Positions 22,306 to 64,000 of a stretch of DNA of 64,000 nucleotides are shown here, in pieces. The translations under genes were made by a program, and so were the position numbers. Under the pieces are notes generated by a model that saw nothing but the letters and a program-made list of their open reading frames with translations, did not search any database and was not told the origin of the DNA. Where the stretch lies: positions 18,004,001 through 18,068,000 of the forward strand of contig NC_088327.1 of NCBI RefSeq assembly GCF_036884655.1, read 5' to 3'. The DNA comes from Musa acuminata AAA Group. Its lineage: Eukaryota > Streptophyta > Magnoliopsida > Zingiberales > Musaceae. The stretch's first letter is position 1, and every line of letters begins with the position of its first letter.

Positions 22306-23971
22306 TTTATATTCTTTTAGATTATGTAAGCTAGCAATTTTACACATATTAAAGTTAGTAAAATTTTACATCTTTTGAGATGTGCAAGATAGCACTTCTT
22401 GCTTCTATTTTGAGATGAGCAAGCTAGCAAGTTTGCCTCTTTTCGTGATATGCATGCTAGCAATTATTTCTCCCCCTTTATCATTGGCAAAAAGAGGGGA
22501 ATAACAATACAATAATGTAATTCATTTTTCTTTACTACAATCTTCAAATCATGACAAGGATAAATTGTCATTCTTATTTCAAAATGCCATAATTAAGATA
22601 AACCTTAAATTCAAATCAAGGCAATTTTAATCATGATTCACATCATATGCAATATATCATATATACATCATCATAATAAAATCATAAGTATTGCATGCAT
22701 CATTCCAAATCAGATATATTTCAAATCAGGATGGTATCAAAATGTCAAATTATATTATATCCTACCATGAAAGATCAAAACTTCTCATTTGTATGCATCA
22801 ACATAATATCATGAGTATTTCATGCATAATTTCAAATCATCACATTCATTTCATCGTATGAAGAATATCAAGAAAAATTAATTGGGTGATGAGATATACA
22901 CTAAATGAATTCAAGGGAGTATCATAAATAAATCATGACATGAAGGATATGATCATGTGTATACCAAAATACATGATTCATTTTATCAAATCTCCTAACG
23001 AAATCTTAGGAGATCAAATGATATAATATCTTGATTCATGCATAAAAAATTTTAAATTATAAATAAAAAAATTAAGATAAAAATTATGATTTTTTTTTTA
23101 TAACTCAAATAGTGAAAAGGAGAATCATATTGAACAATATGAATTCATAAGAGATCTCATGTTATAAATCCAAGAATTGACAAGAAAAATCATGATTCAT
23201 TTAGAAAATCTCCTCTTAAGAAATTACCAAGTAGAATTGTAGGAGAACAATTAATGAAAATCTTGATTCATAATAAATCTTAATTTATAAATATCAAGGG
23301 ATCAAGATCATAATTTGGATAAAAATTTATACAAATTTAAATTATCAAATCATCAAAATTACTTTCATAGTTTAATAGATTCAAAATAACATAAATAACT
23401 TTATCAATCTCTTAGTGAAAAATTGATACGATAGAGAAAAAGAAATTTTCAAGAAAAATACTTTTTTCTTTTTAGTTGTTTCAATACAAGTGATTTATTT
23501 CATGGAAGTATGCCTTTTTCATTTATGCTAAATAAAAACATACATCAACGTTTAGGATCAAAAAATAAATTTTGTCATAAAAACCATCCATCTTATTTAT
23601 AACCGAAAAAGCAACTTTCATTACGACAAAGATCAATAAGTCATGAATCACAAAAGTCATCATGCATAATTTTAAAATATAAACTTATTAAGTATGATTA
23701 TTATGCATGACATCAAAACATGGTTTCAATGAACATAAAGCATCTTCAATCGAAAAGTAATACGAAAATCAACATGAAACATATTATTGCTTATTAAAAA
23801 TATACATAGGATTATCATTAGATTTAAATCTAACATTTTGTTCCTTTACCATAAAACGTGTAATTTTTATTATCATTTTTAAAATTAGCAAGAAAAAAAA
23901 AGCATGATCCCATTTTATTTATTTATTTTTTATATTTTATATATTAATTTAAAAATAAAATATGAAATGCA
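22306..23971 (-). other. S2 AT-rich 3' non-coding region
   Basis: No ORF is supported. It is homologous to S5 31500-34029: both have AAGCTAGCAA-type motifs (22320-22470), a TCTCCCCCTTTATC tract at about 22470, and a TAAATAAAAACAT/CGTTTAGGATC block (23525 in S2, 33530 in S5). In the non-autonomous copies this region stands where pol would be. Confidence 0.65.
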
Positions 23972-41283: not shown

Positions 41284-44200
41284 TTAGGGACAATTTAACA
41301 TGCCTAATTCCCTTCTAATGAATTCAAATTGATCTTCGTTCAGAGCTTTTGTGAATATATCTGCTAATTGATGCTTTGTGTCAATGAATTCTAGAACAAC
41401 ATTATTGTTAAGGACATGATCGCGTATGAAATGATGCCTAACATCGATGTGCTTAGTTCTAGAATGCTGAATTGGATTTTTAGTAAGACATATGGCACTA
41501 GTATTATCACATTTTATGGGAATATTTTTAAAGTGAATTCCATAGTCTTCTAATGTATTCTTCATCCAAATGACTTGTGCACAACATGCACTTGCAGCTA
41601 TGTATTCGGCTTCTGCCGTAGATAGTGCAACTGAATTTTGTTTCTTGGAAGTCCAAGAAACAAGTGCATGTCCTAAAAATTGGCATGTTCCGGATGTACT
41701 TTTTCTATCTATTCTGCATCCGCCAAAATCGGCATCCGCATAGGCTATTAAATCAAAATTTTCAGATTTTGGATACCACAATCCTAAATTTGAAGTTCCT
41801 TTAAGATACCTAAATATTCTTTTAACACTTTTAAGATGAGATAATTTAGGATTAGATTGAAACCTAGCGCAAAGTCCTACACTAAACATAATATCCGGTC
41901 TAGTCGCAGTGAGGTAGAGTAGACTACCTATCATTCCCCTATATGTTTTTTGATCGAAACTTTCACCATTTTCATCCATATCTAACTTAGTCGCAGTACT
42001 CATAGGGGTGTTTATTGCTTTTGAATTATCCATGTTAAATCGTTTTAACAATTCTAATGTGTATTTAGATTGGTTAATAAATATACCATCCTTAAGTTGT
42101 TTGATTTGTAATCCTAAAAAGAAAGTTAATTCACCCATTAAACTCATTTCAAATTCAAGACTCATACATTTGGCAAATGATTCACATAGTGATTCATCCG
42201 AAGAGCCAAACACAATATCATCAACATAAATTTGCACAATAAGAAAATTATTTTCAAAATGTTTAATAAACAATGTAGTATCAACCTTGCCTTTGGTAAA
42301 ATTATTTAAAATAAGAAAGGAACTAAGCCTTTCATACCAAGCTCTAGGAGCTTGTTTTAAGCCATAGAGAGCTTTAGTCAATTTGAATACATGATTAGGA
42401 AGAAGAGAATTTTCAAATCCGGGAGGTTGTTCGACAAATACTTCTTCGGAAATAAAACCATTCAAGAAAGCACTTTTAACATCCATTTGAAATAGTTTAA
42501 AATTATTACTACAAGCATAGGCAAGGAGCATCCTTATGGCTTCTAATCGAGCCACGGGAGCGAAGGTTTCTTCGTAATCGATACCTTCTTCTTGGTTGAA
42601 ACCTTTGGCCACTAATCTAGCCTTGTTTCTAACCACAATACTATTTTCGTCTTGCTTGTTTCTAAAGACCCACTTAGTACCTATGACTAAGTGGTCACTT
42701 GGTCTAGGAACAAGCTTCCATACCTCATTCCTCTCAAATTGGTTCAATTCTTCTTGCATTGCAATGATCCAAAAATCATCTTTTAAGGCTTCGTCAATGC
42801 ATTTAGGTTCAATTTGAGAAAGGAAGGCGGCGTTAGCACAAAAATTTTTGAAAGAAGAACGAGTTTGAACCCCTTTTGATGTATCTCCTATAATTTGCTC
42901 TTTTGGATGAGCATCTACATACTTCCATTCTTTTGGTAAAGAAATTTCGGAAGAAGATGCATTCAAATGGCTATTTTGAGGAGAGGGTTCATTTAAATTC
43001 AAATTATCAAAACCAAGATCATCATCAAAATCATTTTTCTTTAAATCGGAAATTTCATTAAAAACTACATGAATAGACTCTTCAATTACTAAAGTTCTTT
43101 TATTAAAAACCCGAAAAGCTTTAGAAACGGAAGAGTAACCAAGAAAGATGCCTTCATCGGATTTAGCATCAAATTTTCCTAAAGCATCCCTTTCATTTAA
43201 AATAAAGCATTTACAACCAAAAACTTTAAAATAGGAGATGTTTGGTTTTTTGTTATTCCATAATTCATAGGGAGTTTTGGATAAGGATGGTCTTATTAGG
43301 ACTCTATTCATGATGTAGCAAGCCGTATTTACAGCTTCGGCCCAAAAGTACTTAGGTAAACTTTGTTCATTCAACATAGTTCTTGCCATTTCTTGTAGGT
43401 TTCTATTTTTCCTTTCAACTACTCCATTTTGTTGAGGATTTCTTGGAGTTGAGAAGTTGTGATTGTACCCATTACTTTCGCAAAAATTTTGAAATTCACG
43501 GTTTTGGAATTCACCACCGTGATCACTCCGAATTGATGAAATCATGAAGCCTTTTTCGTTTTGAGTGAGTTTACAAAATTTAGAGAAACACTTGAAGCAA
43601 TCACTTTTGTGAGCTAAGAAATAGGTCCAAGTATATCTAGAGTAGTCATCCACAATCACAAAAGCATATTTGCTTCCACCTAGACTTGTTGTATCAATTG
43701 GTCCAAATAAGTCCAAATGGATCAATTGTAATGGTCTAGTAGTGCTAATTTGATTTTTTGGTTTGAAGCTTGTTTTTATTTGTTTGCCTAGTTGACATGC
43801 ATCGCATACTTTGTCCTTAATAAACTTTAAATTTGGAATTCCTCGTACTAATTCTTGAGATGAGATCTTAGATATTGTTTTCATGCTTGCATGGCCTAAT
43901 CTCCTATGCCAAAGCCAAGCATCATCATTTACGACGGAGAAGCACATTTCATTACTTAGTTCATCAAGATTGATGGTATAGACATTATTTTGTTTTAAAG
44001 CAATCATAGTCATGTTATGATTTGGTTTTTCAATAATGCACATATTTGATTCAAATCTAACGATGTAACCTTTATCGCATAGTTGACTAATACTCAAGAG
44101 ATTATGTTTCAATCCATCAACTAGTAAGACATCATCAATGGAAAAATTAAATTTGTTACCAATAGTTCTCTTGCCAATGATTTTGCCCTTGTTGTTGTCT

Positions 44201-44322
44201 CCGAAGGTAACGTACCCTTCTTCTTTGCTAGTGAGCATAGAGAAATGAGATGGATCTCCAGTCATATGTCTTGAGCATCCACTATCGAGATACCATCTCT
44301 TGCTCCTAGCTTGTGGGTTTGT
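41284..44322 (-). CDS. pol: S6 pol (protease-integrase-RT-RNase H), intact
   Basis: The frame opens right after the gag TAG. Nineteen codons before the first Met (44265) contain the protease active site in [10 protein letters not shown], so the true product does not start at that Met. Numbered from that Met: the integrase zinc finger is H120, H125, C154, C157; the integrase catalytic triad is D185, D248, E284 (D-D35-E); the RT has [11 protein letters not shown] and YVDD at 680-683; RNase H has YADADF at 842-847, STAEAEYIA and D920. No stop or shift is seen through 993 residues. Pol is in the same frame as gag, separated by one TAG, so expression probably needs readthrough or a separate message. 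Substrates would be its own RNA and cDNA, in cytoplasmic particles and then the nucleus. Confidence 0.93.
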
Positions 44323-45888
44323 CTACAAAAGAGGATGATTTTTAGGTACCCATTTGATTTTGGGTGCCTCAAAAATTGACCCACTAACTTTGTTATTTAT
44401 GATTGAATTCTTTATAGTTCCTTTAGGAACCCATATTAATTTTTGTGAACTAATCTTCCTAAATGGGCATTTGTAGGCAATATGTCCGGATTTGCAACAA
44501 AAGTTGCATTTCATATAAGAGGAAACATGTAATGTAGGTCCTTTTATGAAAGTGGTAGGATTTTGATGCAATCCTTTTACAAATCCAATTCCATTTCTAT
44601 TTGCGATGTGACCCTTGTGTGCAAGGATCATATCTAATCCTTTGCTACCAACCTTAAACTTGTTTAAGGTTTCCTTAAGAAGCAAATTTTCATTTTTTAT
44701 TGCTTCTAAGTGCTCACACTTAGAGCATGGAGGAGTTTGAATATTATCAAACTTATCTTGTAGCAAAGCATGCTCTTTCTTTAAGATACTTAACTTCTTG
44801 CTAACAGTTCTACATTCATCAAATAATTCATGAAAAGCGATAGAGAGTTCTTCAAAAGATAAATCTTCATTAAGTAAATCACATACCTCTTCTCCTAAAG
44901 CCATTAGCGCGTAATGAGCAACTTGCTCGGTGTTGAACTCCTCTTCTTCGGATGTGCTTGAATCATCCCACGTTGCCTTGAACGCCTTTTTCTTTGATGT
45001 CCTCTTTTTGGCTTGAGGACAATCGTTCTTGTAGTGTCCCGGTTTTTTGCATTCATAGCAAATCACTTGGTCCTTCTTTTGTTCAAATTTATTTTTTGTA
45101 TTATTTTTAAATCTGTTCTTTCTTAAATATTTTTTAAACTTTTGAGTCAAAAGTGCAATGTCATTGTCACTGTCCTCATCACTTGATGTTCCTTTCAAGT
45201 GGTCTTCTTGTGATTTGAGTGCCATATCCTTCCTGTTCTTTGGAAGGGGGTTCTCGAGCTCGTCATGAGCTTGACATGTCATTTCGTAGGTCATTAGAGA
45301 CCCAATGAGTTCTTCAAGAGGGAATGCTTTAAGGTCTTTGGCCTCTTGAATGGCCGTAACTTTTGGATCCCAACTTTTAGGGAGGGATCTTAAGATTTTA
45401 GTTACTAGTTCAAAGTTAGTAAAATCTTTACCAAGAGCTTTGAGTCCATTGATGACATCCGTAAACCGGGTGTACATGTCTCCAATGGACTCACTTGGTT
45501 TCATTCGGAAAAGTTCGTAAGAGTGCACAAGGATGTTGATTTTGGACTCTTTCACTCGGCTAGAGCCTTCATGAGTGACCTCAAGAGTTCTCCAAATATC
45601 AAAAGCCGAATCACACATTGAAACACGATTAAATTCGTTTTTGTCTAGTGCACAAAACAAGGCATTCATAGCCTTTGCATTTAAAGCAAAAACCTTCTTC
45701 TCCGATTCATTCCATTCGCTCATCGGAAGAGAAGATTTTTGAAATCCATTCTCGACAATAGACCAAAGCTCAAAGTCCATAGAAATGAGGAAGATTCTCA
45801 TGCGAGTCTTCCAATATGTGTAATCCGACCCATTAAACAAAGGTGGTCGTGCAATAGAATGGCCCTCTTGCATGCCGGAGTAAGTCAT
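44323..45888 (-). CDS. gag: S6 gag, intact, 521 residues
   Basis: The structural protein of the virus-like particle. The start MTYSGMQEGHS follows the primer site by about 40 bp. Residues 1-40 are DUF4219-like (FNGSDYTYWKTRM). About 60-205 are the UBN2 copia capsid region. An acidic patch lies near 233-243. The CCHC knuckle is C277, C280, H285, C290, followed by a Lys-rich linker. About 350-415 is coiled-coil-like. The second zinc motif is C461, C464, H469, C474. The two zinc motifs and the long C-terminal half are typical of Sireviruses. It ends NHPLL then TAG (44323-44325), and the frame continues without another stop into protease. The stop is at the same position in S1 (TAG) and S3 (TAA). 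Confidence 0.93.
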   Translation of the reverse strand: MTYSGMQEGHSIARPPLFNGSDYTYWKTRMRIFLISMDFELWSIVENGFQKSSLPMSEWNESEKKVFALNAKAMNALFCALDKNEFNRVSMCDSAFDIWRTLEVTHEGSSRVKESKINILVHSYELFRMKPSESIGDMYTRFTDVINGLKALGKDFTNFELVTKILRSLPKSWDPKVTAIQEAKDLKAFPLEELIGSLMTYEMTCQAHDELENPLPKNRKDMALKSQEDHLKGTSSDEDSDNDIALLTQKFKKYLRKNRFKNNTKNKFEQKKDQVICYECKKPGHYKNDCPQAKKRTSKKKAFKATWDDSSTSEEEEFNTEQVAHYALMALGEEVCDLLNEDLSFEELSIAFHELFDECRTVSKKLSILKKEHALLQDKFDNIQTPPCSKCEHLEAIKNENLLLKETLNKFKVGSKGLDMILAHKGHIANRNGIGFVKGLHQNPTTFIKGPTLHVSSYMKCNFCCKSGHIAYKCPFRKISSQKLIWVPKGTIKNSIINNKVSGSIFEAPKIKWVPKNHPLL

Positions 45889-45926
45889 CTCTCTTGGGTA
45901 TTAAACCAAATATGCGAGATAACCTT

Positions 45927-47913: not shown

Positions 47914-49045
47914 TATTGAATCTCGGATTTTGATGATTAAATCAGTTGATGAGTTTGTGATCTAATTTGCATTTTGAGTAACACAAGACTAGCTTCGATC
48001 ATGAAGAGACAATAATATAGGAATAATTAATGTTGGGCCGGAGTGGAATATATCAAAAGATTGGACGTCGAGTTGGAGGATCGATCAACATGTCAGTAGA
48101 AGGCTTCATGCTATGAGTTTGGGCATCAGGCCTAGAAGAGTGAACATTGAGCCAAGGAGATCGGGTGTTACGGAGGTCAACATGTTGATTGGACAATACA
48201 TCGTAAGAGAGGACGATGCGCCGAAGGTTCAGACAAAATGTCGGATGAACTAATGACATGCCGGACAACTTTGTATTCTTGCTTGTAATAATTTATCTAT
48301 ATCGAAGTAATTTAGAGGACTAATTGAGTTAGTTTAGGGTATAACCATGCAAACTCAGTTATGTGCCAACTAGGCCCAAAGTGGGGCTGTTTTGGGCTAA
48401 GAGAAAGGCTCATTCAGTGACCCAAGCCACGTCAAGCGATGGCACCGTCGGAGCTCTCAATGGAACCGCCGAAGTTGGTGGTAGAACTGCTTGAGGCTCA
48501 ACCTCACAGGTGGTCTAGGCAGTGGTACCGCAAGACTAGGCAATGGTACCGCCCATTGTCAGTATGACAAGCGGTGGTACCGCCTAGTGTTAGACTAGCA
48601 GGCGGTGGTACCACCAGTACCTCGAAATCCCAAGGATTCAAATTTTAGGCTCCAAATTTGAATCCATTTGGGGCCTATAAAAATCCCACTCATCCCTACT
48701 CAGTACACACATCAACTGAGAACAAAAAAGAAGGAAAATGGTATTGTAATATTGTGAGAACTCCTCTCAAGCTCTAAGTGTTGGGTGAAGTTTAAGAGAG
48801 GGGTGAGTAGTTATAAGGGTTATCTCCTAAACCTGTGAAAAGAAGAAAAGGGGTGTAAAAGGATAGTTGATTTTCATCCATTGAAAGAAAATCGGGTAGT
48901 GGAAGCCAGTGGCCTCGAGTGAAGAGGAATCGAGAGTGGACGTAGATCATAATGATCGAACCACTATAAAACTTAGTTTGCATTTCTATTTTGCTTTTCA
49001 TTGTCATTCTCATATTGCAAATTGATTTACTTCCTTACTTCTTTC
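47914..49045 (+). repeat. S7 5' LTR, left segment
   Basis: Plus orientation. It begins TATTGAATCTCGG (TG changed to TA). GC/AT palindromes of GGTGGTACCGCC type lie at 48440-48615, an inverted repeat GGATTCAAATTT...AAATTTGAATCC at about 48636-48668, and TATA at 48677-48684. It is interrupted at 49045 by S8. Confidence 0.83.
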
Positions 49046-50641
49046 TGTTGAATCTCGTATTTTGATGATGAAACCACTTGATATGTGTTTATGATTTAAA
49101 CTGCATTTTGATTGATGTAGGTCTACTCGATCAGGATTAGACAGTTAACGCAGGAGGAATTGACGTTGCGCCGGAAGAGATCACGTCAGGATATTGAACG
49201 GTAGAAGGCTTCGGACGTGGGGCATCGGGCCAAGGAGAGCGGAATTGCACCAAGGATATCGAGGTTACGGAGGTCAACCGCTGATTGGGCAACAAGCCGT
49301 AAGAGAGGACGATGTGCTGAAGAATCAGATGAAGCGACAACCAATGATGTGTCAGGCAACAGAATGTCAATTCGCGTTGTAATAATTATCTAGATCGGAG
49401 TAGAGTTTTTTGCTTGTGTGTGCAGGATTAACTACGATAATGATGAAGACATAAAGCGAAACAAAGTGTCGGAGTCAAGCACGAAGGATTTGTTGCGAGT
49501 TCGAGAGTTCGACGGAAGTCCAAAGGTTCGTCGGGAATGCTGCTGGAACTAGCCGAGAATGAGTAGGGAGCTTGCCGAAGGGTTTTTCGGAAGCTCGCCG
49601 GAAGGTTCGTTGGAAGTTCACGGAGCTCACCGAGAAAGATCGGAGCTTGCCGAAGAAGCTCATCGGAACTCGCCAAGATCAAATCGTGAAGTCTAGGAGC
49701 TTGCCGGGAGTCCGCAGAATGGTTTCCGAGAGTTTATCGGAAGACCGCCGGAAGTTCGCCGGAAGCTCGCTGGAAGAAGTCTTGACTTACGGACTTTGTA
49801 ATAGCTTAGAAAATATCTTTAAATTTGTAGTTAGAATATTAATTAGGTTTAGGATTAGGTGTTAATCCTATAACCCAAGTAGGGGCCAATTGGGCCCGAG
49901 TTTGGACTGGTTTGGGCCAAGTTTGGAGCCCAACCAGTGAGCTGAATTGGCCTAGGCGGTGGCACCGCCCAGCACCTGAGAGCTGGGCGGTGGCACTGCC
50001 AGTCCACTGTCAGTGTGACACTGATAGGCGGTGGCACCGCCAGCCTCGGAAACCCAAGAGAATTCAAATTTTGGAGCCCAAATTTGAATCCTCTTGGGGC
50101 CTATAAATACCCCTCAATTCTCAGCAGAGAAGACAACCTTTTGAGATGCTAGAAGTTGAGAAAAGCTTTAGGAAAAGTCTTGTTTTCAATAGCTTGAGTG
50201 TTCACCTCCTTTCTTTTCATTGAAATCTTTGTAAAAGGGTGAACCACTTGTAAGAGGTTGTAAGAGGGGTGTAAGAAGGAGGTTTATCTTCGCCTAGTAA
50301 AGGATGATCATTAGTGGATGCCGGTGGCCTCGACGGAAGAGGAATCGGAGGAGTGGATGTAGGTCACGATTGACCGAACCACTATAAACTACCGTCTTCT
50401 CTGGTTTGCATTTATCTTATTGTCATTTATATTACTGCAAACCATCTTCATTTTGATGCTCTACTTCTTTGTCTCCTTCTTACATATGCCTTCAAGTTAA
50501 AACGCAATCGAAACGATTTCAAACAAAACGTTGCTTTTATCGTACGAAGTTTCCGTAAGTGTTTAAATCGTCGAAAGTTTATCATACTTTACCATTGCAC
50601 TAATTCACCCCCCCCCTCTTAGTGCCACTCCGGTCCTAACA
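49046..50641 (+). repeat. S8 solo LTR inside the S7 LTR
   Basis: 1596 bp from TGTTGAATCTCG to GGTCCTAACA, flanked by a perfect 5-bp repeat ctttc (49041-49045 and 50642-50646). TATA is at 50102-50109. It has the LTR body of the S5/S8 subtype. With no interior of its own, it is a solo LTR left by recombination. Confidence 0.88.
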
Positions 50642-54301: not shown

Positions 54302-55918
54302 TGTTGAATCTCGTATTTTGATGATGAAACCACTTGATATGTGTTTATGATTTAAACTGCGTTTTGAGTGATGCAGGTCTACTCGATCAGGATTAGACAG
54401 TTAACGCAGGAGGAATTGACGTTGTGCCGGAAGAGATCACGTTAGGATATTGAACGGCAGAAGGCTTCGGACGTGGGGCATCGGGCCAAGGAGAGCGAAA
54501 TTGCACCAAGGATATCGGGGTTACGGAGGTAAATCACCGATTGGGCAACAAGCCGTAAGAGAGGACGATGTGCTGAAGAATCAGATGAAGCGCCAACCAA
54601 TGATGTGCCGGGCAACAGAATGTCAATTCGCGTTGTAATAATTGTCTAGATCGGAGTAGAGTTTTTTGCTTGTGTGTGCAGATTAACTACGATATCGATG
54701 AAGACATAAAGTGAAACAAAGTGTCGGAGTCAAGCACGAAGGATTTGTTGCAAGTTCGAGAGTTCGACGGAAGTCCGAAGGTTCGTCAGGAATGCTGCCG
54801 GAACTAGCCGAGAATGAGTAGGGAGCTTGCCGAAGGGTTTTTCGGAAGCTCGCCGGAAGGTTCGTTGGAAGTTCACGGAGCTCGCCGAGAAAGATCGGAG
54901 CTTGCCGAAGAAGCTCATCGGAACTCGCCAAGATCAAATCGTGAAGTCTAGGAGCTTGCCGGGAGTCCGCAGAATGGTTTCCGAGAGTTTATCGGAAGAC
55001 CGCCGGAAGTTCGCCGGAAGCTCGTCGGAAGAAGTCTTGACTTACGGACTTTGTAATAGCTTAGAAAATATCTTTAAATTTGTAGTTAGCATATTAATTA
55101 GGTTTAGGATTAGGTGTTAATCCTATAACCCAAGTAGGGGCCAATTGGGCCTGAGTTTGGACTGGTTTGGGCCAAGTTTGGAGCCCAACCAGTGAGCTGA
55201 ATTGGCCTAGGCAGTGGCACCGCCCAGCACCTGAGAGCTGGGTGGTGGCACCGCTTGACTGGGCGGTGGCACCGCCAGTCCACTGTCAGTGTGACACTGA
55301 CAGGCGGTGGCACCGCTAGCCTCGGAAACCCAAGAGAATTCAAATTTTGGAGCCCAAATTTGAATCCTCTTGGGGCCTATAAATACCCCTCAATTCTCAG
55401 CAGAGAAGACAACCTTTTGAGAAGCTAGAAGTTGAGAAAAGCTTTAGGAAAAGTCTTGTTTTCAATAGCTTGAGTGTTCACCTCCTTTCTTTTCATTGAA
55501 ATCTTTGTAAAAGGGTGAACCACTTATAAGAGGTTGTAAGAGGGGTGTAAGAAGGAGGTTTATCTTCGCCTAGTAAAGGAAGATCATTAGTGGATGCCGG
55601 TAGCCTCGACAGAAGAGGAATCGGAGGAGTGGATGTAGGTCACGATTGACCGAACCACTATAAACTACCGTCTTCTCTGGTTTGCATTTATCTTATTGTC
55701 ATTTATATTACTGCAAACCATCTTCATTTTGATGCTCTACTTTTTTGTCTCCTACTTACATATGCCTTCAAGTTAAAACGCAATCGAAACAGTTTCAAAC
55801 AAAACGTTGCTTTTATCATACGAAGTTTCCGTAAGTGTTTAAATCGTCGAAAGTTTATCATACTTTACCATTTCACTAATTCACCCCCCCCCCTCTTAGT
55901 GCCACTCCGGTCCTAACA
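54302..55918 (+). repeat. S8-type LTR, second copy (3' LTR)
   Basis: 1617 bp, TGTTGAATCTCG to GGTCCTAACA, nearly identical to 49046-50641. It has one extra GC-palindrome unit near 55250. TATA is at 55378-55385. It follows a perfect polypurine tract and is followed by the same ctttc plus S7 LTR tail as the first copy. Confidence 0.87.
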
Positions 55919-56266: not shown

Positions 56267-56490
56267 TGCTGAATCTCATATTTTGATGATGAAACCACTT
56301 GATATGTGTTTATAATTTAAATTACATTTTGAGTGATGCAGGTCTACTCGATCAGGATTAGACAGTTAATGCAGGAGGAATTGACGTTGCGCCGGAGGAG
56401 ATCATGCTAGGATATTGGATGGCAGAAGACTTCGGACGTCGGGCATCGGGCCAAGAGCGGAATTGCGCCACGGATATCGGGGTTGCGGAG
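56267..56490 (+). repeat. S9 Sirevirus LTR fragment
   Basis: It begins TGCTGAATCTCATATTTTG, a variant LTR start, in plus orientation inside a gag fragment. It matches the first 220 bp or so of the S8 LTR (GATCAGGATTAGACAG) and is interrupted by T1 at 56491. The rest lies beyond the window. Confidence 0.82.
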
Positions 56491-57982
56491 TGTTGGGAAA
56501 TCATTGGGGGTGACATCATATGCACAGCGGAAGAACAAGAAAACAAAATCCCCGATTCCCAAAAGATGTTCGTCGTCGTGCGAAGATTGGTACGCAAAAA
56601 TCCGCAAAACACAAAACTGCGTATAGAGATTGTGTTACCTAGGGAGATCGTATATCCCTGTTTTCTTGCAGATCCTTAGGAGAGGGTGAAGGAGGTCAAG
56701 CGTCCTCCTCTCTAGCGGTGATCCACACAGCAGGGTTGCGACGATGCTCCTCAAAACTCCAAGACTACTCTGAGGTGGAGAGGGAGAGGAGAATAGGAAA
56801 GGCAAGCAAAGACTCTAGCCTATGAGGATGTGAATCCCTCCTATTTATAGAGATCCCGTGTCAAACCCTAATGGGTCCTTCCCTAGTGGGTATTGGATCT
56901 GCATCCAATAAGACAAGGGCTCCGTCGGATATCTCATATCCGAACCTCTACTCATCGCAATGCCTACCATATGTGTGTGACCCTCTAGGCCCAATATCGA
57001 GCTGGCCGTGAGTCATACCTGTCAGAACTCCTTCTAACTCAATGAATTATTATCTCTGTAATAATTTACTCGACTCATCGACTACGGACGTACTAGGCCA
57101 CTACGCCGTAGTCCCCAGACGATACAGGGGAATCCAATCCATTGGACTTGTCTGTCCTCAGTTACCATGTACCTATAGTCCCTCATCCATCTAATATCCC
57201 AGAGACCGTATATCGAGCATGGTGCTGTCAGACCCATACGGTTTCTACTCGAGTCTCGCTCTAATCGGATTCTCCCGGAGAACTCTTTCTCTCTCAACCC
57301 GAATGACCCTGGCCAAGGATTTGTCTGAGCAAGAACACATAGGATATTCCTCTCATGACGCCGAGAGTGGATGATCCTCTATTGACACTCAATAGCCCTC
57401 GTAAGGTCGACTACCACTCCCAATGACCAGCTGTACTAGATCTGGGGACAGCCAAACCTATAAGTCTGGTATCAAAGAATGGAGCACTCATACAGGACAT
57501 CCTTGGTGTCTCAAGTCTAAGGACCAGATACACCACTAGGACTACGGAATCACTGTCTGACAATAAGGCATCATCAACCATCCAGCATTCCGTAAGCGGA
57601 TCAATCAGTGAACTCATTCTCCAATGAGCACCTGTATTGTATCCCTAGTGTCCCTACACGAGCAGCTATGAGACCAGCTGCATCCATTATATGGACGGGT
57701 ATACAACACACCAGTCTATCCGGTTATCACGATGTCCCTCTCGAGTAACCTATGACCGGGATTATTTAGGATATGTGTTTAAAGGTGAATCGATCTCATT
57801 ATCGTGATCTCATCACGATCCGATTCCCATTGCACAAATCCAAGGACATCACAATATATATATGCATTTATGCAATAGTTATAAAGTGATATACGCCAAA
57901 ATATAATAAGCAAAAAGATTCTGTATCAAGTCACACGTGCCATCACTCACGTGATTGGCTTGCTGGGCACCTATGACTAGCA
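56491..57982 (-). repeat. T1 3' LTR
   Basis: 1492 bp. TATA is at 56842-56849 (minus TATAAATA). It ends at TGACTAGCA, followed at once by the purine tract. Confidence 0.88.
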
Positions 57983-57996: not shown

Positions 57997-60153
57997 CTAA
58001 AGCCAATCACCTATGTGTCTGATCCCCATCAGACTCCTGTGACGCTCATAGACAATCTGAGACAACGGCTTTGTCAGTGGATCTGCAATGTTATCTTCGG
58101 ATGGAACTCTTTCCACTACTACATCTCCTCGGGTTACGATCTCTCTTATATGCTGGAACCTCCTCAGAACACTTCTGATGAGACCCAAGTTCCCTTATTT
58201 GAGTAATCACCCCATAGTTGTCGCAATATAAGGAAGTCGACTTGTCGCTATCTATATCGACTCCCAAATCTGTGATGAACTTCTTCACCTAGACTCCCTC
58301 CTTTGCTGCATCTAATGCGGCAATGTACTCCGCCTCTATGGTCGAGTCAGCAGTGGTATCTTGCTTGGAACTCTTCCAGCACACTGCTCCTCCATTCAAT
58401 GTGTACACATACCCTGAATTCGACTTGCTATCATCGACATCAGACTGAAAACTTGGGTCAGTGTAGCCTTCAACCTTAAGGCTATTACCTCCATATACTA
58501 GTAAAAGATCCTTAGTCCTTCTCAAGTACTTAAGGATACACTTTACTACTTTCCAATGCTCCAAGCCTGGATCCGCCTGATACCTGCTTGTGACACTCAG
58601 AGTATGCGCTATGTCAGGCCTAGTACATAGCATGGCATACATGATAGACCCTATTGCTGAGGCATAAGGTATCATATTCATGTTTGCCCTTTGGAATTTT
58701 CCATGCCAAACCTTTTGACAATGGTTTCTATGTACCTGGACTGGGACAAGCCAAGCATCCTCTTGGATCTATCTCTATAGATTCTAATCCCCAAGATATA
58801 GGATGCTTCCCCTAAGTCCTTTATGGAGAAGTGTCTAGATAACCAAGACTTTACTGTGGATTGCATTCCTACATCATTCCCAATGATGAGGATGTTATCC
58901 ACATATAACACCAAAAAGGTGATAGCGCTCCCACTTACCTTCCTTTATACACAAGGCTCATCTTCGTTCTTAACGAAGTCATAAGATCTGATTGACTCAT
59001 CAAATCTTATGTTCCAACTTCGGGAAGCTTGCTTTAGTCCATAAATGGATCTAAGCAACCTACACACTTTATCTGGGCAGTTCTTGGACACGAATCCCTC
59101 AGGTTGCATCATATACACCTCCTCCTCGAGGTTCCCGTTGAGGCATGCGGTTTTCACATCCATCTGCCAGATCTCATAATCATAGTGTGCTGCAATAGCC
59201 AATAGAATTCTGATGGATTTTAGCATTGCTACGGGTGAGAAAGTTTCGTCGTAGTCAACACCTTGCCTTTGACGATACCCCTTAGCCACTAGCCTTGCTT
59301 TATAGGTCTCTACCTTTCCATCTACTCCGATCTTTTTCTTAAAGATTCATTTGCAACCGATGGGTACAATACCTTCGGGCGTATCAACTAGGTTCCAAAC
59401 CTTATTGGAGTACATAGAATCCATCTCAGAATTCATGGCTTCTTGCCACTTCCCGGAGTCTATACTCATAATAGCCACCTCGTAGGTCTGAGGATCAATA
59501 TCCTCTACATCATCTCCTCTAATATGTCCCACATATCTCTCAGGAGAATGAGATACTCTATCAGACCTGCGTAAAGTTGAAACTTGTGTATTAGGTACCT
59601 GAACAGACTCGGGCTGTAGAGTGGTGCTTGAGCTTGGTTCTCTAACTTCGCTCAACTCTATCATTCTCCCACTGTCTCCGCCAAGAATGTGTTCCTTCTC
59701 AAGGAACACTGCTCTCTTAGCTACAAAGACCTTTTGGTCCTCGGGATGATAGAAGTAATACCCACAAGTTTCCTTGGGGTATCCCACAAATATGCATCGC
59801 TTTGTCCTTGATTCTAACTTATCGGGGTTGTGTCTTTTAACGTGGGCAGGGCAGCCCCAAATCTTAACAACCTTAAGATCAGGCTTCTTCCCTTTCCATA
59901 TCTCATATGGTGTAGACACTACCGACTTAGTTGGAACTCTGTTCAGAAGGTAAGCTGCGGTTTCTAGGGCATATCCCCAGAATGAGATGGGTAGGTCAGC
60001 AAAACTCATCATGGACCGTACCATATCTAATAAAGTACGATTTCTCCTTTCAGAGACACCATTGAGCTGAGGTGTGTAAGGAGGTGTCCATTGGGATAAT
60101 ATCCCATGGTCCTTGAGGAACTGAGTAAACTCTGTACTTAAGTACTCACCTCC
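57997..60153 (-). pseudogene. T1 pol, 3' part (integrase end, RT, RNase H), broken
   Basis: It continues in frame from the upstream ORF after a TGA. The integrase C-terminal part includes SERRNRTL, which keeps the catalytic Glu. RT starts MAKGYRQRQGVDYDETF with QMDVKTACLNG. The catalytic box reads YVDN where YVDD is required, so the polymerase is dead. RNase H has YTDPSF and STIEAEYIA. Breaks are a TGA at 59347-59349 (Trp expected), a TAA at 58945-58947 (Tyr expected), a deletion with frameshift near 58680, a TAG at 58289-58291 and a frameshift near 58190. The frame closes at 57997 after DPLTKPL. Confidence 0.88.
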
Positions 60154-61812
60154 TCATTCTGATCGAAGAGTTTTGATACTCTTTCCAGTCTGGTTCTCCA
60201 CCTCATTCTTATACTCTCTGAATTTCTCAAAGGCCTCGGACTTGTACTTCATTAAGTACACATATCCATACCTTGAGAAATCATCAGTAAATGTAATGAA
60301 GTAGGAGTAACCTCCAATGGCATGAGTTGACATGGGTCCACATACATCACTATGTATGAGTTCCAACAACTCAGTGGCTCTCTCTCCAGTTCCACTAAAT
60401 GGAGAGTTGGTCAATTTTCCACGAATGCAAGGCTCACAAGTTTCATAAGACACATAGTCGAATGGATCTAGATATCCATTATTTAGCAACTTTTGAATCC
60501 TTCTTTCATGGATGTGACCTAGCCTACAATGCCACAGGTATGCACTGTTCAACTCATCTCGTTTCCGTTTGGACACATTTACATTCATGATATGTGGAGT
60601 GGTGTCTAACATAAATAAACCATAATGCAATGTTCCTTTCGTGATGATCTTATCATCTAATAATATCGAACAACCATTGTTCTCAAAAATAAATTTATAT
60701 CCACTAACTGTTAAACATGAAATGGAGATAATGTTTTTGATAATAGAAGGAACAAAATAACATGCATCTAATGCAATAAAAGCTCCACTAGGCAGATGTA
60801 GGGCGACCTCGCCAACAGCTAATACAGTAACTTTTGCTCCATTACCCATCTTGAGGTCCATCTCGCCTCTCTCTAGTCTCGTAGGCCTTGCCAGAACCTG
60901 CAACGAATTGCATATATGATAAGCACTACCGGTATCCAATACCCATGTGTTATCATAAGAGTCTGACAAATGGAGACTGATCATGAATGTACCTGAAGCT
61001 TCATCAAGCTTTTGTTTCGCCCTTTCTGCAAGGTACTCTTTGCAGTTTCTCTTCCAATGCCCATCTTTACCACAGTGGAAGCACTGGCCTTTGTCCTTTA
61101 CTGGGTCTTTCTTAGCAACCTTTGCTTTACCTTGTTTGCCCTTGCCCTTTCCCTTCTTAAGGGACCTTTCTGCTTTCCTTTTCTTTCTGGTCTCACCAGT
61201 GTAGAGAACTGGCTTCTCTTTCTTAATAGTACTCTCTGCCTCCCTCAACATATTGAGGAGCTCCGGGAGAGTCACCTCTAGCTTGTTCATATTAAAATTC
61301 ATTATGAACTGTGAAAAGGAATCTGGTAGGGATTGAAGCACAATGTCCACACACAAGTTATCCTCTAGGACCATTCCTAGACCTGTGAGTTTCTCTATCC
61401 ACTCAATCATCTTTAGGACATGGTTCTGAACCGGTGTCCCCTCAGTCATCCTAGCGCGGAAAAGGCTCTTGGATATCTCATATCGTTGAGTCCTTCCCTG
61501 TTCCTCAAACAATTTGCGGACATGTAGGAGAATGGATCTGGCATCCATCTTTTCATGTTGTCTCTGTAACTCTGGAGTCATAGAGCCCAACATATAGCAC
61601 TGAGCAAGAGTGGAATCATCAATGTACTTCACGTAGCGAGCGATCTCATCCTCGCTTGCCCCTTCTTCGGGCGTAGGCATCACTGTATCAAGGACGTACA
61701 CGATTTTTTCCGCTGTGAGAACAATTCTCAAGTTACGGAGCCAATCCGTATAATTTGGACCAGTGAGGCGGTTGACATCAAGTATGCCACGTAAGGGATT
61801 TGAAAGCGACAT
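60154..61812 (-). pseudogene. T1 gag-protease-integrase, 5' part, 552 codons open
   Basis: The gag UBN2 region covers about residues 10-200 ([17 protein letters not shown]), followed by a strongly basic [11 protein letters not shown] linker. The CCHC knuckle is C244, C247, H252, C257. The protease has DTG at 293-295. The integrase zinc finger is H428, H433, C459, C462, and the first catalytic Asp is D489. The frame stops at TGA in LRSE-stop-GGE. Relatives have Arg (CGA) there, so a C-to-T change explains the stop. The preceding residue, normally the second catalytic Asp, is Glu. The leader upstream is non-coding. Confidence 0.87.
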
Positions 61813-61951
61813 TTTCTGAAAATAAAGATGTAGCAGAAATGAATAACATGCAGATTTTGCAAGAAATAAACTATCAAGATATGGACTTCTATCTTAATAT
61901 GCTCCCACTATTTTACTATCGAGTCACGCGACACCCTCAGCACGTAAAACG

Positions 61952-62310
61952 GAAGTCTCCGGCAGACTTCTAGTGGGGATCAGGATCCAATCAGCGTCTT
62001 AGTGTAACCTCGAGGGACTCGACCAATCACACTAAGCCTAAAAGGTAGGCAACTCTTGCCGATCACAACTCCTTGTGATTCCCGTCCTGTTCGGCCTCCG
62101 AATCACCATGGTCTCGATGGACTCGACCAACCATGATGCTCGGTTAAGTCAACACCTTCGTTACAAGATGAGTCTGATTTGATGATATACCCTCGAGGGA
62201 CTCGACCAAGCATACCATGCCCTCAGGTCACCGGTGACATCTCTATGTCATAAGCAAGATAGCGAATCGCGATATAGGTGAGTCTCGAGGGACTCGACCA
62301 ACTCAACCTA
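61952..62310 (-). ncRNA. Cluster of RNA hairpins with a repeated 19-nt apex in the T1 leader
   Basis: Four copies of the RNA apex TTGGTCGAGTCCCTCGAGR (R = A or G; plus positions 62008-62026, 62112-62130, 62191-62209, 62283-62301) are each abutted on both sides by arms that pair with each other but differ between copies. The stems are 61998-62007/62027-62036, 62104-62111/62131-62138, 62183-62190/62210-62217, 62275-62282/62302-62310. Inside the apex TCGAG can pair with CTCGA. Between them lie simple hairpins with CTC-type loops: 62048-62060, 62062-62079, 62235-62250, and 61952-61970 with a five-base loop. Function is unknown; packaging, dimerisation or translation control are possible. Confidence 0.65.
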
Positions 62311-62475
62311 CACCGGGAATCGGTTCCTACTCATAACGATGGAAGGCCACGTGGGTCAATCTAATTGCCTCACGTTTACCGACTTAATATTATCGAGAGA
62401 TGTTTCTATAATTTGGTCTCCTAATATGACATGTCACACATATACATATTTAATATATATCTACATCGCATGCAA

Positions 62476-62497
62476 ATATATATATATATATATATAT
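62476..62497. repeat. AT dinucleotide microsatellite
   Basis: About eleven AT units in the T1 leader. Confidence 0.95.
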
Positions 62498-63102
62498 CTA
62501 GTATGTGTATAAGCAATCACACCAGATGATCATGGACCACAACCTAATATGATTAGGCCCGAGCTAGTAGGCCTAATCACTCACATCAAGATCTATGTGT
62601 GCAACGGTGCATCTCCATGCCCTGTGATCATCCATCTCGTCCTCGTCAGTTTCGTCGACATCTTGATGCATCTCCATGCAACACGATCGTCCGAGTCGTG
62701 GGTCCCGCTATCGCATCCACGCTCCCGCTGCGCCTCCTCATGTGATTACAACTTAATCATAGGCATGCAGGCCCGACAATAAACGAGAAATATAATGGAG
62801 GTTCGCATACCTCAATAATAATAATCACAAGTACACACATCACACGGTCCATGATCATCCGTCCACACATCATACATCACATGTATAAATAATCATCATC
62901 ATGTAGGACTACTAGATAATAATAAAAATAATAATCAACTAAACCTTTTAATTAATTAATATTTTTCTGAAATCAGGGACATGTAGGGAATTTCTCAATT
63001 CCTAAGGGTATTTTCGTAATTTAGACAAAAGACAGAAATTGGAATTTCTCAAATTCCGAGGGGTAAAAATGTCTTTTTCCCAGAAAACCCTAATTCCCTC
63101 TT

Positions 63103-63545
63103 TCCGCTGCCGCTGCCGCCGCCACCACCCTGCTGGCGGCGGCCTGTGCGGCGGGGCGAGGGCGCTGCCCTCGCCTGCAGGCGGCACGCCCGCTGGCGGC
63201 GATGCCGCTGCGGGTGGGTGCCCCCTTCGGGCCCCGTTGCCTCCGCAGGCGGTGCTGTCCCGCCGGGCGGCCGCCCCTGTGGCGGGAGTTCCGCCCGCGG
63301 GAGCAGCGGCGGCAAGCGTCGCTGCCCTGCGGCGGCAGACGCCGCTGCCCTTCGGCGGCAGGCGCCGCTGCCCTACGACGCCTCTGCCCGCGGGCTGCCA
63401 GCCCCGCCAACAGCAAGCCTGCTGCAAGCAGACCACCGGCCGGCTGCTGCAGGCACAGCGCTTGCGCATGCGCCGGCGTTGTGCTGCCTGGCTGCTGCTG
63501 CGGCTGCAGGTGGCTGCAGGCATGCAGATCGAGGGCAGCAACTGT
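63103..63545 (-). repeat. GC-rich tract in the T1 leader
   Basis: A sharp island of GCCGCTGCC/GGCGGCAGG words, many as near-palindromes, in otherwise AT-rich DNA. Long ORFs appear in nearly all frames on both strands, a composition effect. It may be strongly structured as RNA. Confidence 0.8.
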
Positions 63546-63644
63546 TGCTGCCCTTCCTCGCTTTTGCGTCAACGATTTTGACGTCAAAATTCTTCCTAAA
63601 CACAATCCACGCAGTTCAAAACCAATCTTTCGCACGAACAACCT

Positions 63645-63657
63645 GGCTCTGATACCA
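63645..63657 (-). promoter_or_regulatory. T1 primer-binding site (tRNA-iMet)
   Basis: Perfect TGGTATCAGAGCC on the minus strand, one base from the LTR. Confidence 0.93.
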
Positions 63658-63658
63658 C

Positions 63659-64000
63659 TGTTGGGAAATCATTGGGGGCGACATCATATGCGCAGCGGAA
63701 GAACAAGAAAACAAAATCCCTGATTCCCAAAAGATGTTCGTCGTCGTGCGAAGATTGGTGCGCAAAAATCCGCAAAACACAAAACTGCGTATAGAGATTG
63801 TGTTACCTAGGGATATCGTATAACCCTGTTTTCTTGCAGATCCTTAGGAGAGGGTGAAGGAGGTCAAGCGTCCTCCTCTCTAGCGGTGATCCACACAGCA
63901 GGGTTGCGACGACGCTCCTCAAAACTCCAGGCCTACTCTGAGGTGGAGAGGGAGAGGAGAATAGGAAAGGCAAGCAAAGACTCTAGCTTATGAGGCTGTG
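63659..64000 (-). repeat. T1 5' LTR, partial at window edge
   Basis: TGTTGGGAAATC start, about 97% alike to the first 342 bp of the 3' LTR. Confidence 0.9.

Follow-up and report, generated by a model that had tools for sequence, protein, structure and literature searches.

The leader of a Ty1/copia LTR retrotransposon contains four RNA hairpins that, shortly before gag, present one nearly invariant 18-nt apex on four unrelated, self-pairing lower stems. The element, labelled T1, lies on the minus strand at the right end of the 64,000-nt stretch of Musa acuminata DNA analysed here (the window). The array is more than chance, and its best reading is a multivalent RNA-binding array. A specific function is put forward with more reserve: we give about even chances that the array is the signal by which Gag packages the element's own RNA. 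The predicted structure is strongly supported between the four copies, is supported by one distant family and is unsupported by variation within the genome.

The host element and its leader

T1 can be placed among Ty1/copia elements by its copia-type gag, CCHC knuckle, copia-type pol domains, LTRs and tRNA primer binding site (PBS). Its gag-pol frames in the window match the Pfam families Retrotran_gag_2, zf-CCHC, gag_pre-integrs and SH3_retrovirus; the frame is broken by stops, so the window copy is not intact. A relative whose sequence is 98% identical to the T1 polyprotein (P0001) is listed with rve and RVT_2, in a list that carries no domain order. P0001 stands for a cluster of 178 members on a short 'ena' contig, a hint that metagenome data include DNA of T1's plant. 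From the order of gag, PBS and LTR, the element RNA corresponds to the minus strand of the window, referred to below as the sense strand.

The PBS (TGGTATCAGAGCCA) is presumably of the initiator-Met tRNA type. The long leader and the Met-type PBS fit the Angela/BARE lineage, but a Met PBS is common across copia groups: most of them have one in the part of a plant element survey that gives lineages and PBS types (PMC6317226). Long leaders are not general in the window, since in a neighbouring copia element (41284-45900) the gag frame lies near the PBS and the LTR. One part of the T1 leader (63096-63580) is very GC-rich, holds copies of a 28-nt repeat that are partly 23 nt apart and, unlike the remaining leader, has long open frames on both strands. 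At its other end, the 3' LTR directly adjoins a segment (56267-56490) that recurs at 49040-49272 and 54302-54528 with 89-90% identity; T1 thus seems to be inserted in another repeat. The coordinates of the element and its hairpins are collected in Table 1.

Table 1. Parts of T1 and of its hairpin array, in window coordinates.
Feature	Position	Strand	Remarks
3' LTR	56491..57982	-	upper limit set by eye from polypurine tract and TG start (putative)
gag-pol region	58289..61812	-	gag, CCHC zinc knuckle, beta-barrel, GAG-pre-integrase, SH3-like domain
gag start codon	61810-61812	-	
Leader, PBS to gag	61813..63643	-	1831 nt, 40 ATGs
Splice-acceptor-like tract, candidate only	61816..61838	-	ends CAG 3 nt before gag start codon
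Hairpin D, nearest gag	61998..62036	-	apex 62009-62026; lower stem CTTAGTGTGA / (G)TTACACTAAG; 10 bp beyond U pairs
Hairpin C	62098..62143	-	apex 62113-62130; lower stem centred on CCATGG; one bulged A
Hairpin B	62182..62218	-	apex 62192-62209; 9-bp lower stem, two G-U pairs
Hairpin A, 5'-most in RNA	62270..62315	-	apex 62284-62301; 13-bp lower stem, one bulged U
Primer binding site	63644..63657	-	TGGTATCAGAGCCA; follows 5' LTR
5' LTR, 3' part	63659..64000	-	cut by window end; 96.8% identical to 3' LTR over 342 nt

Sequence and predicted fold of the array

On the plus strand of the window, the apex reads CTCGAKGGACTCGACCAA and begins at 62009, 62113, 62192 and 62284, with spacings of 104, 79 and 92 bp. 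The sequence-only reading from which this analysis started had described four copies at these spacings in a retrotransposon leader, which holds, and an identical apex of 19 nt, which needs correction: the apex is 18 nt long, and the copy at 62113 carries a G>T change (C>A in the sense RNA), the other three being exact. When up to three mismatches are allowed, the window contains four matches to the apex against 0.03 expected. The C>A change lies beside the loop of hairpin C, opens one pair and is private to the window row among 25 aligned rows.

In the sense strand, all four hairpins share one predicted fold: a variable lower stem, an unpaired GG on the 5' side, an upper stem UCGAG/CUCGA and a loop UCC. 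Both the self-pairing of the flanks and the folding of the apex on itself had been proposed from the letters, and both are borne out by this fold. The pairing of the flanks reaches further than had been described: in every hairpin G(A/G) pairs with UU in the apex, and the GG is left as a bulge. Each stem holds one or two G-U pairs. The heads begin 489, 397, 318 and 214 nt before gag.

A likeness of the apex to a shortened tRNA T-arm or B-box (GGTTCGANTCC, with a 5-bp stem and a 7-nt loop) had also been suggested, and this candidate was rejected. The T1 apex (GGTCGAGTCC) is one base short and has a 3-nt loop in the predicted fold, and the apex of a distant relative with a comparable array (locus L015, see below) is nothing alike. 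An Rfam search of the T1 leader gave seven weak matches, none over the hairpins and none to a tRNA, and the same search of L015 and of a second relative, L017, gave no match.

Evidence that the stems pair

The pairing of the lower stems was counted over nine levels, numbered 3 to 11 outward from the apex, allowing two single-base bulges (one in hairpin A and one in hairpin C). Within their own copy the arms pair in all 36 cells, and each level shows two or three types of pair, whereas arms combined across different copies pair at four to seven of the nine levels. Among the 24 possible assignments of arms to partners, that of each arm to its own partner is best (-50.3 kcal/mol, against -39.8 for the next). 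Compared with 2000 shuffles each, the arm duplexes of T1 gave p values of 0.0005, 0.022, 0.0005 and 0.0015.

Folding of the 391-nt array region gave z scores of -5.0 for the sense and -2.2 for the antisense strand. Along the leader in 120-nt windows, the hairpin zone (sense z -0.9 to -3.1) is no outlier relative to some other leader parts. The sense duplex is stronger than the antisense duplex in all eight hairpins of T1 and L015, which hold one to four G-U pairs each. One property looked for in a packaging signal, folded sense RNA within the genomic RNA and upstream of gag, is present in T1 as a predicted structure.

The array across the genome

The exact apex occurs at 22,586 places in the 1.53-Gb assembly, against two for the same pattern read backwards. 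Seven of the first eight aligned places have all four exact copies at the spacing of the window, and the eighth has three exact copies. A pattern covering about one eighth of the possible flanks located the exact apex at only three places on flanks unlike those of T1, so that, as far as this pattern goes, the apex belongs to the T1 family. Places with a match return at intervals of 11 contig numbers (for example C9/C20/C31 and C11/C22), suggesting that the assembly is a haplotype-resolved triploid with 33 chromosomes. In the hairpin region the genome copies are approximately 82-99% identical, and an older subfamily (L084, L097 and L107), whose leader is approximately 82% identical, lacks hairpin D through deletion or replacement.

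Conservation of pairing in preference to stem sequence is supported between the four copies, and in L015, but not among copies within the genome, where the covariation that the sequence-only reading had expected above background among relatives is no higher than in shuffles. Two alignments were used. The first (A3) consists of the window, eight of the exact-apex places and 16 of the 20 loci of a later set, with 20 distinct rows; 96.5% of its cells are paired, and two pairs have changed on both sides, against 1.9 expected from shuffling. The second (A5) has 26 rows, made up of the window, ten earlier loci and 15 of 25 T1-like loci, the latter sitting among 30 loci drawn from 39 places. Of the distinct variants at its paired columns, 36/90 keep pairing with the majority partner and 38/87 with the partner in the same row, both below the approximately 48% expected. 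The proportion is 15/25 for variants present in at least three of the 26 rows. In A3, one old copy (L055) has exchanged a G-C pair of hairpin C for A-U by a double change. Most of the variation in A3 and A5 is probably decay after insertion; the covariation test is thus of low power, yet it gives no support.

A similar array in a distant family

Scanning bacterial and archaeal genome contigs with a gag-to-integrase alignment gave seven loci, three of which (L015, L016 and L017) are 43-52% identical and resemble plant copia elements; they are probably plant contamination of bacterial assemblies. Plant-like copia proteins with 43-52% identity to T1 or P0001 are encoded on the contigs of these three loci and on the plasmid records NZ_CP115454.1 and NZ_CP115302.1, all filed as Streptomyces, Geminicoccus, Solirubrobacter or Kitasatospora; the plasmid sequences too are probably plant contamination.

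L015 is 43% identical over query residues 5-552 (gag to integrase) and has its PBS at 624, its gag at 2336 and a leader of 1701 nt with 45 ATGs. This leader carries four copies of GGCCA(T)CCCTTCGGTGGA. In all four, the predicted hairpin consists of a lower stem, an unpaired GG, a 5-bp upper stem of CCACC or CCAUC with GGUGG, a loop of CUUC or CCUUC, and one unpaired A before the lower stem resumes. In this leader the heads start at 573, 479, 408 and 174 nt upstream of gag. The two apices are unrelated: T1 and L015 have the build and the place of the array in common, and the letters differ. The form of the L015 apex with T was found at no place in the genome of the window.

Three of the L015 copies look like recent duplicates of approximately 62 nt. 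Copies 2 and 3 differ by an A-U>G-C double change and by G-U>A-U changes, all of which preserve the stem, and the fourth hairpin has an unrelated stem with four G-U among its ten pairs. Shuffling of the L015 arms gave modest p values (0.034, 0.037, 0.026 and 0.155).

A third family, that of L017, offers a hint only. In one element CAAACGTTGGAA is present twice, on stems that differ from each other (p 0.0225 and 0.0065), another element of this family has a single copy of the apex, and L016 has one copy. These hairpins lack the unpaired GG, one having AA on both sides and another having none. The scanner for repeated apices had no valid null, as reversal keeps hairpins, and it also listed other repeats, the L017 apex being last of four. 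Recurrence of the array consequently rests on one clear relative, L015.

Other scans added no further family. Viral contigs gave 14 single-copy matches to the apex, which were taken as chance, and no confirmed gag; the two-copy apex pattern was absent from genome contigs; plasmids gave six records, leaders not included, and phages no match. A pattern for other gag families matched no place, and a GHWKRNC pattern with another arginine codon matched three places, all old copies of T1.

A candidate splice acceptor before gag

Tracts resembling splice acceptors end 3, 6 and 5 nt before the ATG in T1, L015 (2310-2335) and L017 (around 4765), where the L017 ATG is no more than the probable start codon of a gag frame that is itself incomplete. 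Under a score made ad hoc, after the CAG had been seen, these tracts rank 2/80 in T1, 1/61 in L015 and 3/84 in L017. Judged by eye, the AG is kept in 14 of 25 T1-like loci and lost in 11; a script that also required the ATG flagged 12. A search for splice donors gave no clear candidate, so splicing of the leader stays a lead.

Proposed function of the array

A repeated head, free stems, short spacing and four copies form the layout expected for a binding protein with several units. In the reading that we prefer, the sense RNA of T1 would present four equal heads shortly before gag, each with two unpaired G on its 5' side, an upper stem of 5 bp and a small loop of pyrimidines, and the lower stem would hold each head at its end, its sequence being free provided that pairing holds. 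A multivalent RNA-binding protein, most likely T1's own Gag with its CCHC zinc knuckle, could then grip the four heads together, and this binding would select full-length RNA for packaging into virus-like particles. Retroviral CCHC zinc knuckles bind unpaired G, and the retroviral packaging signal is placed behind the splice donor. If the T1 leader were likewise spliced out before gag is translated, for which the acceptor-like tract is a slender indication, the array would be kept only in the genomic RNA. The differing stems would allow each hairpin to fold with itself and not with its neighbours, and may limit the loss of copies by recombination between repeats.

The same anatomy would suit any multivalent RNA-binding protein. 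A host protein could bind the heads and govern how unspliced element RNA is exported from the nucleus, stabilised or localised, as the long leader with its 40 ATGs and the acceptor-like tracts before gag in three families might suggest. The site of a host factor should be conserved, however, and the apex differs wholly between T1 and L015; a binder encoded by the element and changing with it explains the differing apices better. We therefore consider a host factor unlikely. Packaging by Gag is preferred because the head changes fully between families and the build stays, which fits a partner encoded by the element.

Dimerisation, which the sequence-only reading had named beside packaging, has become less likely. 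The palindromic parts of the T1 apex (UCGA and CUCGAG) are self-complementary and could pair between two RNAs, and palindromes act in the dimerisation of Ty1 RNA in the part of that work available to us (PMC8396678). In the predicted fold, however, the upper stem buries the T1 palindrome, and the loops that would have to meet, UCC in T1 and CUUC or CCUUC in L015, are not self-complementary; a kissing-loop signal was rejected on this ground, and we hold pairing between two RNAs to be quite improbable.

We rate no higher an element for translation that carries ribosomes past the upstream ATGs to gag by internal entry or shunting. Such ATGs are numerous (40 in 1831 nt in T1, 45 in 1701 nt in L015), and both arrays stand shortly before gag. 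Four copies of one head would, to our knowledge, be an unusual layout for internal entry or shunt elements, no relevant Rfam match covers the array, and splicing of the leader, if it occurs, removes the need.

That the hairpins are functionless remains of duplication, carried along by a successful family, would agree with the result of the covariation tests within the family and with a subfamily (L084) that does without one hairpin. The decay of dead copies can mask selection, however, and four unrelated stems that all pair, together with a like array at the same position in a distant family, are hard to account for without selection, which makes this reading very improbable. Least credible is a role in DNA, as repeated palindromic sites for transcription factors of the sort proposed for Sirevirus motifs, whose palindromic symmetry is described, in the section available, as often marking transcriptional activators (PMC2829016): those motifs sit in LTRs and near the ENV gene, the T1 stems are unrelated to one another, and DNA sites do not need the better sense pairing found in 8/8 hairpins.

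We make a wider proposal tentatively and regard it as doubtful: plant copia elements with long leaders may carry, at one and the same place before gag, a class of multivalent RNA tag of about four hairpins, with a fixed build (5' GG bulge, upper stem of 5 bp, small loop), a head that is private to each family and changes with its Gag, and a place in a removable leader, so that the tag would stay only on genomic RNA. In plants, such a class would correspond to the packaging signal that retroviruses place behind the splice donor and would, at the same time, be a code of self-recognition between element families. How plant LTR retrotransposons choose their own RNA for packaging is poorly known, though these elements make up a large share of plant genomes. 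A repeated, family-specific head of about 18 nt gives binding and probing tests a concrete object, and a descriptor of repeated head, stems that pair with themselves and short distance to gag can be used to survey other families.

Comparison with known systems

In the titles and abstract openings of the open-access literature, a scope outside which most subscription journals lie, no description of such hairpin arrays was found. The barley Ty1/copia element BARE has separate pools of packaged and translated RNA, and packaging and dimerisation signals are mentioned for it (PMC3735527). BARE is like T1 a copia element with an untranslated leader before gag; compared by description only, it differs in that the account, in its accessible part, includes no repeated hairpins (PMC3735527). 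Sirevirus motifs are, like the T1 apex, repeated short palindromes in non-coding parts of plant copia elements, but in the available part of their description they lie on the LTR and ENV side, have a proposed role at the DNA level and are without variable self-pairing stems (PMC2829016). For Ty1, the portion of the account consulted names two palindromes besides a pseudoknot, and puts a proposed packaging signal at +230-580 (PMC8396678). The packaging and dimerisation regions of retroviruses and Ty1 are, like the T1 array, structured 5' genomic RNA near or before gag, and T1 differs from them in setting one head four times on unrelated stems approximately 90 nt apart, with binding that is putative.

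The nearest known layout is found in a host mRNA. The iron-responsive elements of the transferrin receptor mRNA form an array of several hairpins bound by one protein. They combine a conserved head, a 5'-side bulge and an upper stem of 5 bp with lower stems that vary, and these features recur in the predicted T1 fold. These elements have a one-C bulge, a six-base loop and a variable upper stem and lie in a 3' UTR, whereas T1 has a fixed upper stem and a GG bulge and carries its array in the leader. By analogy, the T1 array may work like the array of iron-responsive elements, without being a member of that family.
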